From: Thermotogaceae bacterium
Lineage (GTDB): Bacteria; Thermotogota; Thermotogae; Thermotogales; Thermotogaceae
Assembly: GCA_027077795.1 (NCBI GenBank)
Contig: JALWTT010000006.1
Location: 585,791 to 649,790 of the forward strand
DNA: 64,000 bases
Direction: 5' to 3'
The notes beneath the pieces are model-generated. The model was given only the letters and a program-made list of their open reading frames with translations. It made no database searches and was not told where the DNA came from. The position numbers and the translations under genes are program-made. This document shows, in pieces, positions 53,122 through 56,576 of the stretch (its first letter is position 1; every line of letters begins with the position of its first letter).

Positions 53122-53150
53122 TTGACACATCTGCTTTTTTTTTGTAAATT
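53122..53150 (+). promoter_or_regulatory. Promoter of the tRNA pair
   Basis: A consensus TTGACA (53122-53127), a 17-base T-rich spacer and TAAATT (53145-53150). The expected start near 53157 is two bases before the first tRNA. Confidence 0.7.
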
Positions 53151-53158
53151 TTCTCATC

Positions 53159-53231
53159 GGCGGCGTAGCTCAGTGGCAAGAGCGGGTGATTCATAATCAC
53201 CGTGTCGTGGGTTCGAGTCCCACCGCCGCCA
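53159..53231 (+). tRNA. tRNA-Met (CAU), elongator type likely
   Basis: A 73-base cloverleaf: acceptor GGCGGCG / CGCCGCC, D-arm AGCTCAGTGGCAAGAGC, anticodon stem GGTGA / TCACC with loop TTCATAA (anticodon CAT), T-arm GTGGGTTCGAGTCCCAC, discriminator A. CCA is not encoded. A paired G1-C72 and a GGTGA anticodon stem exclude initiator tRNA. It could in principle be the tRNA-Ile2 that TilS modifies, but GGCGGCGTAGCTCAG is typical of elongator Met. Confidence 0.9.
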
Positions 53232-53244
53232 TTTGTTTTTATAA

Positions 53245-53318
53245 GGCGGCGTGGCCAAGTGGTCAAAGGCGGGGGTCTGCAAAATCCCTATTCGTGGGTT
53301 CGAATCCCACCGCCGCCT
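53245..53318 (+). tRNA. tRNA-Cys (GCA)
   Basis: A 74-base cloverleaf: acceptor GGCGGCG / CGCCGCC, anticodon stem GGGGT / ATCCC with loop CTGCAAA (anticodon GCA), T-arm GTGGGTTCGAATCCCAC. The discriminator is T, the U73 identity base of tRNA-Cys. CCA is not encoded. A run of T follows directly, so the acceptor stem and T-run may help end transcription. It lies 13 bases after tRNA-Met. Confidence 0.94.
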
Positions 53319-53349
53319 TTTTTGTTGTATAATCGCCGGGGGGATGAAG

Positions 53350-54030
53350 ATGGCAAAGGTTCTGTTGAAAGATCTACTTATAAATGGTGAGAAAGGGGTA
53401 CAGCTACTCAACGAGGTAAGAGATCTGATAATCCGGAGGAAAGAGAGTGTACTGGATAACGCCGTTAAGGAATTCAAGCCAGATGAGCTAATCTTAATGA
53501 ACCCCTTTGACAGTAGCGTATCTCCTGAAGATGTTGAAAGAATCCTCGATTTCTTGAAACCCGTTCCGGAGATTAGAATTTTCCCGTGGATAGACGTTTA
53601 TGAGTCGGTCATTTTACCAGAGAATGTAAATATACTGAATGAGTTTGAAGACTCATGGGAATTTTCCTCATGCCCGGTGAACAATGTCCCCAAGGTTTAT
53701 CTTGAGGAGAAGGGGATATTAGAGCTGGACGTATCACCTGTTTGGATAATAGAGATCTCTCCAGAAGATCCGGCACCAGTTTCAACCATTGAAGATTTTG
53801 TGAAAAATATGAGAACCGGGATCTTGGTGGCAGTCCTTTACACGTATCTCCTGAAAACCGAAGAGGAGGCTATAAACTCCTTTGTTGAAGAGACGGGAGG
53901 ATTTGTTATCAATCTCTCAAAACAACTTCCAGAGCCAAAAGACACTGTGGAAACTGAGTTTGTAAGACGGGCGAAAAATAGAGTGGGGAAATATTTAGGT
54001 ATGAAAGCTCTCCGGGGGGAAATAGTGTGA
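53350..54030 (+). CDS. Unrecognised 226-residue protein coupled to a YhaN-like ATPase
   Basis: No family is recognised. The start ATG 53350 has GGGGGG six bases before it, and a TATAAT (53328-53333) lies upstream of that; the open frame further up runs into tRNA-Cys and is not coding. The protein is soluble and acidic. It has a helical N-terminus (GVQLLNEVRDLIIRRKESVLDN), an alpha/beta middle (DELILMNPFDSSVSPEDVERILDFL, IRIFPWIDVYE), and a helical end (FVRRAKNRVGKYLGMKAL). It has none of the metallophosphoesterase motifs (DxH, GDxxD, GNHD) expected of the usual YhaO/SbcD partner. Its stop overlaps the next start by 4 bases (GTGA), so the two are translationally coupled. Confidence 0.8.
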   Translation: MAKVLLKDLLINGEKGVQLLNEVRDLIIRRKESVLDNAVKEFKPDELILMNPFDSSVSPEDVERILDFLKPVPEIRIFPWIDVYESVILPENVNILNEFEDSWEFSSCPVNNVPKVYLEEKGILELDVSPVWIIEISPEDPAPVSTIEDFVKNMRTGILVAVLYTYLLKTEEEAINSFVEETGGFVINLSKQLPEPKDTVETEFVRRAKNRVGKYLGMKALRGEIV

Positions 54031-56576
54031 AGATCTCCAGGATTAAGATAATGGGGTTTGGGAAATTTCGAGATACAGAGTTTTCATTTCAAAAGGGGCT
54101 CAACGTCGTGTATGGACAAAATGAGTCCGGCAAAACTACTCTTGCTAATTTCATACTTTACACGCTCTCTGGTTTCACTTCGGAAGAAGTGAGAAAGTAC
54201 ACTCCATGGATAAGGGGAGAGTTTGACGGAGAGCTTATTCTTGAAACGAAATCAGGTGAATTGAGATTGAAACTCAACCCTAGAGATCCTTCCCACAACA
54301 GGGTACTGAGGAGAGAGGAGTACGAGGCTTCATCCTTTATACCAGAAGAAGGTGGATTAACTCTATCGAGAGGAGTAAGTGGAATAGTCATAGCCAAGCT
54401 CAGGAAAAAGATGGAGGAAATAGAAAGGATGGAGCGTGTCATAGACCTTCTGAAGAATGAGCAGAACGTTTATGAAGAGCTATCCCGTGTTGAGAGAGAC
54501 CTAGGTGAAAAGGTTGAAGATCTGAAGCAGAAACTCTCAGATTTAACGGAGAAACTCTCCGAGGAGAAGGAGATAAGAAAAAGATATGTTGATTCTAAAA
54601 AAAGATTGAATTCTCTGGAAAGAGAGATGGAGAATCTGGAGAAGAGGTTGTTAGCAGCTAGGATTAAAAAAGCTCATGATATATGGAGGGAAATGGATAC
54701 CCTGAGAGTGAAAATATCCAGTATGGGAATCGAGTTGTCCAACTTGGAAAAGTTCATCAGATACCCACAGGAGAAAATAGGTAGGGTCTGGTCACTGAAG
54801 AAGGAGCTGGAAGAGATCGAGGGAAAGGCGAGCAAGATATCCGCTGAACTCGCCTATAGGAGGGAAGAAGAAAGGATTTTGAAGGAGAGGAAAAAGGTGT
54901 TGGAAGAACTTCTTCGGATATCGGAGAGCGAGGATGTGGATAAAGTTATTTTGAAGGTGAAGAACATAGAGCTTTCGATGAAAATGCTCGAAGAAAAGAG
55001 AAAACCAAAGGGCTACGATGAAAGGTGGGAATTCTTCGACAAAACGGTGGATATAGAGTCGAGAATGTCTGAGATACTGTCGATGATGGAGAGATTGGAA
55101 AAGCTGGAGAAAGATCTCTCCGAAATAGAGAGAGAGCTTGAGGCGATTGACAAAGAGTTGGCAACTATCAAGACAAGGATCAGTTTGAGAAACACCTTGA
55201 CCATAGTGTTCTTAGCACTCGCCGGTGGGTTGATAGGAGCCGGATATCTATCAAACCTTCTCTTTTTCTTCTCTATCGCTGCTGCCGTTTCCACAGGACT
55301 TTCCTTGGCTCTCTTTCTTTCAACAGGAGAATTGAGAAGGGGAAGAATAAACCTTGAAGGGGAGAAAGAAAGATTAGGCATGAACTACAGAGTTCTGGGG
55401 AAAAAGATAGATGGTCTTAGAAACGAGATATCCTCTAGGACTAGTGGGAGTGGGTTCAGAAGCCCTCAAGAGATGATCGATGAGTATAGAAGATATCAAA
55501 ACTGGAAGAAAACGATGGAGTCACGCGTTGAAAATGAGAGCATGAGAATCCTTGAGAGAGAAATAGTGAAAGGCTTAAGAGAATTCTTTGATGAGGTGAA
55601 AGGGGATTATTCCAGACTGGTGGAAGAGGTCAGAGAAAAAGCATCGGAATACGCTATTCTCAGAGATAAAATAGCAAGTCTCAAGCTTTCCATAGATGGG
55701 TTACAGACTGTCCTGGAGGATCTTAGAAAAAAGAAAGAGACACTTCTAGGCGAAAGAGAAGCTCTTTTTGAAGAATTGGAATGCGACGATTATGAAGACT
55801 GCTTAAGCTTGCAGGAGAAGAGGGAGAGGTACGAGAAGTTAGCGGCAGAGAAGGAAAGACTTGAAAGTAGATTGAAGGAGCTCGGAGAACTCTGGAAAGA
55901 GTTTAGAGTCTACTATGATACGAGAGTTCCCCAAGGGGTCGATACCGAAGAAAACCTGGAATCCATAGAAATCCTTAACGCGAGAATCGAAAACACAAAA
56001 ATGGAGATATTAGATGTGAAGAGCAGGGTTGAACAGCTTTCCAAGGAGATGGAGAATGCACGGGTAGAAATCTCCGAAATACACATGATTCAGGGTGAAT
56101 TGGAGAGAACAAGGCTTCATCACATAATGGCTGAGGAGGAACTCAGAGCTTTTCCGGAAGTCATAAGGTTGTTCTCCGGTATAAGGGATGAATTCGTCGA
56201 GAAGTACAAAGAGATCTTTGAAAAGAGATTCCGAGAGTACTCGGAGAAAATCATAGGTAGGGATTTCGAAACAGCGGTAGAAGACGATTTGTCAGTCAGA
56301 GTGAAAATCAGCGGAATAGAGTCTTTGAGTAGAGCAACCAAGGATCAGATCGAATTAGCTTACAAACTTGCGCTGTACGACGTCTTATCCCCAGACGATC
56401 CTTATCCGTTTGTGATAGACAACGCTCTCACGAGATATGATGACTCCAGGTTGGAAACCACAGTAGCTTTGCTGAAAGATATATCAAAAAACCGCCAGGT
56501 GATACTGACTACAAGTGATACGAGGGTTCTGAGACTGGTGCCAAAGCGAAGTGTGAAAGAGCTTTACAATTCATAG
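54027..56576 (+). CDS. YhaN-like SMC/Rad50-type ATPase with a membrane hairpin
   Basis: An 849-residue ABC-type ATPase. Walker A is GQNESGKT (30-37), after GFGKFRDTEFSFQKGLNVVYG. Long coiled coils fill 125-385 and 440-740. At the turn, where Rad50 has a zinc hook, there are instead two hydrophobic helices (390-433, LTIVFLALAGGLIGAGYL and LLFFFSIAAAVSTGLSLAL). The C-terminal lobe has the signature SRATKDQ (768-774) and Walker B FVIDNAL (795-801). This is the layout of YhaN, probably tethering DNA-processing to the membrane. The usual nuclease partner is missing; an unknown protein takes its place. GTG 54027 overlaps that gene by 4 bases. Confidence 0.88.
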   Translation: MKISRIKIMGFGKFRDTEFSFQKGLNVVYGQNESGKTTLANFILYTLSGFTSEEVRKYTPWIRGEFDGELILETKSGELRLKLNPRDPSHNRVLRREEYEASSFIPEEGGLTLSRGVSGIVIAKLRKKMEEIERMERVIDLLKNEQNVYEELSRVERDLGEKVEDLKQKLSDLTEKLSEEKEIRKRYVDSKKRLNSLEREMENLEKRLLAARIKKAHDIWREMDTLRVKISSMGIELSNLEKFIRYPQEKIGRVWSLKKELEEIEGKASKISAELAYRREEERILKERKKVLEELLRISESEDVDKVILKVKNIELSMKMLEEKRKPKGYDERWEFFDKTVDIESRMSEILSMMERLEKLEKDLSEIERELEAIDKELATIKTRISLRNTLTIVFLALAGGLIGAGYLSNLLFFFSIAAAVSTGLSLALFLSTGELRRGRINLEGEKERLGMNYRVLGKKIDGLRNEISSRTSGSGFRSPQEMIDEYRRYQNWKKTMESRVENESMRILEREIVKGLREFFDEVKGDYSRLVEEVREKASEYAILRDKIASLKLSIDGLQTVLEDLRKKKETLLGEREALFEELECDDYEDCLSLQEKRERYEKLAAEKERLESRLKELGELWKEFRVYYDTRVPQGVDTEENLESIEILNARIENTKMEILDVKSRVEQLSKEMENARVEISEIHMIQGELERTRLHHIMAEEELRAFPEVIRLFSGIRDEFVEKYKEIFEKRFREYSEKIIGRDFETAVEDDLSVRVKISGIESLSRATKDQIELAYKLALYDVLSPDDPYPFVIDNALTRYDDSRLETTVALLKDISKNRQVILTTSDTRVLRLVPKRSVKELYNS

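Follow-up and report, generated by a model that had tools for sequence, protein, structure and literature searches.

A YhaN-type ATPase paired with a shortened, very probably nuclease-dead Mre11/YhaO-type subunit in Thermotogales

Gene pair and its distribution

Two overlapping reading frames, one for a small protein and one for an SMC/Rad50-like ATPase of the YhaN type, lie on the forward strand of the window, the 64,000-nucleotide stretch of a Thermotogaceae genome that was analysed here (Table 1). Both frames are confirmed, as is the 4-base overlap between the end of the first and the start of the second by which an initial annotation of this DNA had considered them coupled. In relatives, the junction is either an overlap (−4, −7 or −10) or a gap of up to about 13 bases; in one genome (G001) a frame break obscures it, the ATPase start (locus L043) lying in a different frame from the remainder, which reflects a frameshift or an assembly error. 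The small gene stands immediately 5′ of the ATPase gene in all loci read with both ends present, and the genome survey that the initial annotation had proposed found neither gene without the other.

Table 1 Features of the gene pair in the window
Feature	Coordinates	Strand	Residues and basis
Small-protein ORF	53350..54030	+	226 aa, ATG start
Remnant of first metal motif (DxH), K-D-L-L, His lost	53368..53379	+	residues 7-10; profile alignment to YhaO ADLHL, residue mapping tentative
Remnant of GD motif, L-M-N-P-F-D	53494..53511	+	residues 49-54; profile alignment to IAGDLF, single-residue register tentative
Remnant of GNHD motif, I-F-P-W-I-D, Asn-His lost	53578..53595	+	residues 77-82; profile alignment to ISAGNHD, register tentative
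Hallmark F-S-S-C-P-V-N	53662..53682	+	residues 105-111; alignment A1 and deletion-scan alignments, exact register tentative
Two C-terminal helices	53944..54012	+	residues 199-207 and 211-221; DSSP of AlphaFold2 model
YhaN-type SMC/Rad50-like ATPase ORF	54027..56576	+	849 aa, GTG start
Walker A GQNESGKTT	54114..54140	+	residues 30-38; motif reading, conserved in family
Apical hydrophobic hairpin	55194..55325	+	residues ~390-433; hydropathy scan
Signature LSRAT, Gly of LSxG to Ala	56325..56339	+	residues 767-771; motif reading
Walker B F-V-I-D-N, second acid to Asn799	56409..56423	+	residues 795-799; motif alignment
H-loop region TTSD, without His	56508..56519	+	motif reading

Directly upstream of the pair lie tRNA-Met (53159-53231) and tRNA-Cys (53244-53319), and the small gene follows after 30 bases. 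Of the promoter-like sites, the best (TTGACA-17-TAAATT, 53122-53150) precedes both tRNAs, and the pair and the tRNAs may therefore be co-transcribed. Flanking genes vary between families of the order, with the order of the pair unchanged. Named from reading the neighbours' sequences and not from family searches, they presumably encode S-adenosylhomocysteinase-like and amylase-like proteins in one family, PhoH-like and exonuclease-like proteins upstream and a UMP kinase-like protein downstream in another, and a sigma-like factor in Thermotoga-type genomes. With neighbours that differ between families, the operon context across the order indicated no function.

A search of 45 genomes of the order found the ATPase in 38, and a search with a small-protein profile built from alignment A1 found the small protein in the same 38; both genes are absent from the same 7, which bears out that their coupling is more than chance. 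Three of the genomes that lack the pair (G004, G032 and G043) are poorer or more fragmented assemblies. The other four belong to one genus and are 96-99% complete, and joint loss of both genes is therefore likely there. Outside the order, the search found no credible copies except one with a 246-aa partner (G055) and two with partners of 352-353 aa (G048 and G054). Weak matches outside the order were checked or set aside as noise: one in G068 is an ABC-transporter ORF, and an AAA_27 match in G035 belongs to another system, in which a 713-aa ATPase (L233) overlaps a 207-aa ORF that has a 635-aa ORF in front of it; this may be an operon of another, defence-like kind. Three YhaN loci outside the phylum with seemingly short partners (L155, L178 and L221) were also rejected, their partners being phosphoesterases with GHIH/GDWH-like motifs that are cut off by a contig end or split between frames; a fourth such candidate (L222) has a different 5′ neighbour.

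As judged from their sequences, both genes are under purifying selection and are not pseudogenes. The small gene gave a dN/dS ratio of about 0.04 (L042 against L043) and the ATPase gene one of about 0.15 (window against L042, YN00), both rough values with silent sites near saturation; one method returned a saturated dS for the window against its closest relatives, and the estimates rest on the L042-L043 comparison and, for the ATPase, on YN00. The source genome also encodes a separate SbcC (C15:259910) and a separate SbcD with DWH, GD, GNHD, SH and GHVH motifs (C15:393014), and nuclease function would therefore be supplied elsewhere. About 133 kb of a single contig separates these two genes (L139 and L134), which are adjacent in related genomes (L124 and L126).

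Fold and former catalytic site of the small protein

Against Pfam, NCBIfam, PHROG and PADLOC the small protein gave chance matches only and no family; against PDB sequences its single sequence likewise gave chance matches only (a RasGAP-like protein and UPS1), and its profile gave no match. An AlphaFold2 model built with 31 relatives (mean pLDDT 93.1, pTM 0.84) was then compared with known structures by Foldseek. Among 350,542 PDB chains, ranks 1-12 were all Mre11/SbcD, headed by Thermotoga maritima Mre11 (3qg5, E 1.7e-4, probability 1.00), with 2q8u and 3tho (also T. maritima Mre11) and 7yzo (Escherichia coli SbcD) among the other top matches. Among predicted viral proteins, the top 11 matches (E ≤ 8e-4) were SbcD, gp47, Mre11-like exonucleases or putative exonuclease/phosphohydrolase entries. 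For L048, a relative that belongs to a different family, the model (pLDDT 91.7) had no significant PDB match; its list was headed by the metallophosphoesterases LpxH, Mre11 and GpdQ, all non-significant, as expected if that lineage had drifted further.

Profile comparison linked the small protein to YhaO. The four small-protein subfamilies match one another at 95-100%. Comparisons with only a few YhaO proteins gave matches too weak to rely on (best E 0.017), and larger YhaO sets (53 proteins from other phyla together with Thermotogota YhaO) and decoys were then used. The window subfamily matched the YhaO profile at E 4e-4 and the whole family at E 4e-3, both in N-terminal register; the pairwise range of the family against the 53 YhaO was E 4e-4 to 8e-3, whereas 20 unrelated gene families used as decoys reached E 0.055 at best. 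Taken alone, the Thermotoga and Fervidobacterium/Thermosipho-type subfamilies gave no significant YhaO match. When YhaO columns 120-260, which carry the LLHG, GHIH and YPGS motifs, were excised, the family aligned over its full length (1-207 to 4-226) with 70% probability. This excision was the best of 84 cuts; in the same scan, reversed and nine decoy profiles scored at most 28, compared with 37-39 for the small family.

Given the Mre11/SbcD fold and the colinear alignment with YhaO after one deletion, the small protein would be none other than the nuclease partner, in a shortened and dead form, and its assignment as an Mre11/SbcD/YhaO-type subunit whose nuclease domain has lost an internal stretch is well supported by model and profiles. 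The initial annotation had held that an unknown protein replaces the nuclease partner; the profile and structure-prediction search that it proposed returned a known nuclease fold, the outcome it had itself named as speaking against that claim. The N-terminal half, a cap-like region and two C-terminal helices are retained. In Mre11, a helix-loop-helix binds the base of the Rad50 coiled coil, and in the model the C-terminal helices occupy the position of this element, so they may have the same binding role.

The active site of Mre11 requires several histidines. The window protein has none, and the family mean is 2.1, as against 14.0 in YhaO. GNH[DE] and GHxH are each found in 0/33 members of the small family and in 53/53 YhaO. 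The window protein carries no intact set of phosphoesterase motifs (the DxH, GD, GNHD, H and GHxH ligands), in agreement with the initial annotation, and only remnants align with them (Table 1). The most conserved part of the family is a hallmark motif, F-S-S-S-P-V-N in its family form, with P109 invariant and S107 conserved in at least 90% of 31 sequences; it appears to border the internal deletion, close to where GHxH/YPGS formerly stood, although its register is tentative. With the ligands absent, the small protein is predicted to be catalytically dead, nuclease activity being very unlikely.

The ATPase and a decay series among relatives

The ATPase scored above the Pfam cut-offs for AAA_27 (35.4 bits, cut-off 22), AAA_23 (60.1 bits, cut-off 27) and AAA_15. 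In a tree of ATPase heads, its family is separated from 14 SbcC proteins (100/100) and held together with moderate support (93/79). Together with the Walker A motif, these results uphold its earlier description as a YhaN-like ATPase. The hydrophobic hairpin that had been singled out is also present, as two stretches beginning at residues 390 and 411, at the coiled-coil apex that in Rad50 bears the zinc hook; what did not stand is its special status. One or two hydrophobic apex stretches occur in 6/6 Thermotogota YhaN controls with intact phosphoesterases and in 0/14 SbcC controls, and the hairpin is a mark of the YhaN type, not a peculiarity of this pair. Insertion of the hairpin into the membrane is a prediction from its hydropathy.

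The first reading had missed a change in Walker B, where the second acid (Asp or Glu) is replaced by Asn. All readable Thermotogales members and the relative L057 have Asn here, but 6/6 YhaN controls and the relative L071 have Asp, and SbcC has Glu. In YhaN from outside the phylum, the residue is Asp in 42/51 and Glu in 9/51 readable proteins and Asn in 0/51, with 14 more unreadable by the pattern. Asp-to-Asn replacement would keep the shape of the presumed general base and drop its charge, from which slow hydrolysis can reasonably be expected. Two further departures, an H-loop without its His and an LSxA signature, were considered as family markers and rejected, since YhaN controls with intact partners share both: the H-loop His is missing in the Thermotogota YhaN controls too, and a similar LSQAT signature in place of LSxGT is found in eight Planococcaceae-type Bacillota YhaN with intact phosphoesterases.

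Three relatives (L070, L071 and L057) are intermediate between YhaO and the small family. L071 is the first branch of the family on the ATPase-head tree. Its partner, 352 aa long, is homologous to YhaO over the full length (99.9% match, E 1.9e-33) but has replaced ligand positions (SNL/SDL-L-L, GN-F/L, AGKKD and no GHxH), and its ATPase has Walker B D-D. Next comes L057, with Walker B D-N and a 246-aa partner that matches the small family at E 2e-4; the order Thermotogales is last in the series, with partners of 182-226 aa and Walker B D-N. The likely order of events, read from sequences of which L071 and L057 form long branches, would be a full-length dead partner (L071), then a shortened one (L057), then the minimal form of the order.

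Interpretation and comparison with known systems

We consider the pair very probably to be a dead Mre11/YhaO-type subunit with its YhaN-type ATPase. As an explanation of the whole we favour, by a little over an even chance, a nuclease-less complex of the YhaO-YhaN (SbcF-SbcE) kind that is anchored in the membrane and tethers or senses DNA. The C-terminal helices of the small protein would attach it to the coiled-coil base of the ATPase; ATP would bring two ATPases together by their heads, so as to enclose DNA; and the hairpins would anchor the coiled coils in the membrane. Removal of the general base by the Asp-to-Asn change would slow hydrolysis and give a long-lived closed, DNA-holding state, in which the complex, at the membrane, would tether or sense DNA (its ends or the nucleoid) without cutting; the intact SbcC and SbcD encoded elsewhere in the genome would do the cutting. 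Sequence and model show the homology, the fold, the loss of the ligands, the Walker-B change to Asn, the linkage of the genes and the selection on them, whereas we infer that the complex forms, enters the membrane, binds and tethers DNA, and hydrolyses ATP slowly.

The closed state of human MRN, with ATP bound, has a higher affinity for DNA ends and is associated with tethering and signalling, and it activates ATM without ATP hydrolysis or the Mre11 nuclease (PMC3642328). From this behaviour, together with a lineage that has no nuclease and apparently weakened hydrolysis, we propose that the closed state is favoured and that the complex acts as a membrane-anchored clamp. Against such a clamp, ATP-driven dimerisation is reported to be dispensable for DNA end tethering in some systems (PMC7049730). 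We regard the clamp mechanism as evenly balanced. The further idea of an order-wide Mre11-Rad50-type complex held ATP-bound and closed with its nuclease removed, a dedicated clamp or tether between the membrane and either DNA ends or the nucleoid, is put forward tentatively, as less likely than not; if true, such a clamp would be a natural counterpart of nuclease-dead and Walker-B Mre11-Rad50 mutants.

A nuclease-dead complex of this kind might instead work at the membrane or envelope, for example in a stress or lipid-linked role, and not on DNA. The conserved hairpin is consistent with this, the nuclease and Walker-B changes take away the usual DNA-processing chemistry, and the function of YhaNO/SbcEF is itself poorly characterised (PMC6452273); yet Rad50-type heads and coiled coils are kept and the differing gene neighbourhoods show no consistent membrane link, so that we hold this role to be unlikely. 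It is improbable that the small protein has become an enzyme of another kind, its catalytic site newly built around the hallmark motif on the Mre11 scaffold. That motif is the best conserved part of the family and adjoins the former metal site, but it offers only Ser, Pro and Asn, for which a structural turn accounts equally well, and the family has no conserved set of acids, His or Cys.

The loss of catalytic residues, the further shortening of the small protein in some lineages and the disappearance of both genes from some genomes could also be those of a YhaNO operon decaying under little selection. Low dN/dS, open reading frames maintained across an order in tens of species, a pair that stays together while its neighbours change, and an invariant Walker A and Walker-B Asn make such a remnant very improbable. 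Hardly credible any longer is the original view that an unrelated, undescribed protein took the place of the phosphoesterase: it drew on the lack of a family match in four libraries and of any match by sequence in the PDB, and is largely refuted by Mre11/SbcD fold matches in two libraries, by the calibrated, colinear profile match to YhaO and by the intermediate relatives.

As a rule, only mutants made in the laboratory set apart the cutting and the structural (tethering and signalling) roles of Mre11-Rad50. A natural lineage spanning a whole order, without the nuclease, with its ATPase base changed in concert and with the pair still under purifying selection, would make the non-nuclease role directly testable, and the relatives provide a stepwise series of partner decay, from full-length dead through shortened to minimal. 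The pair also offers a handle on the poorly characterised role of YhaNO/SbcEF (PMC6452273).

Searching the open-access literature, to which the search was confined, we found no description of a nuclease-dead YhaNO variant. SbcC-SbcD and Mre11-Rad50 (TM1635 Mre11 of T. maritima with its Rad50, and E. coli SbcCD) share with the pair the Rad50-like heads and coiled coils, and in fold the small protein is matched best by T. maritima Mre11 (3qg5 and 2q8u) and E. coli SbcD (7yzo). SbcC differs in having no hydrophobic apex in the controls, Walker B D-E, an LSGGE signature and an active SbcD partner; the window ATPase falls outside the SbcC branch, has the hairpin and lacks both LSGGE and D-E, and thus is not an SbcC or Rad50 proper. 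From the same phylum comes a short Thermotogota YhaN-YhaO pair (L117, L118, L123 and L125), also with a hydrophobic apex and a coupled partner on a 776-803-aa ATPase, but with an intact phosphoesterase, Walker B D-D and a separate tree branch; some genomes (for example, G036 and G041) carry both this active pair and the dead version. With YhaN-YhaO (SbcE-SbcF) of Bacillota and others, the pair shares a two-gene operon with the small partner first, an AAA_27-type ATPase with one or more apical hydrophobic stretches and a partner with an Mre11-like fold. YhaO, however, has 350-440 aa and complete DxH, GD, GNHD and GHxH motifs in the 53 proteins collected, whereas the small protein has 182-226 aa and none complete, and Walker B is D-D or D-E in YhaN and D-N in the Thermotogales ATPase. 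The pair is thus new as a variant of YhaNO/SbcEF, a system that is itself already known.
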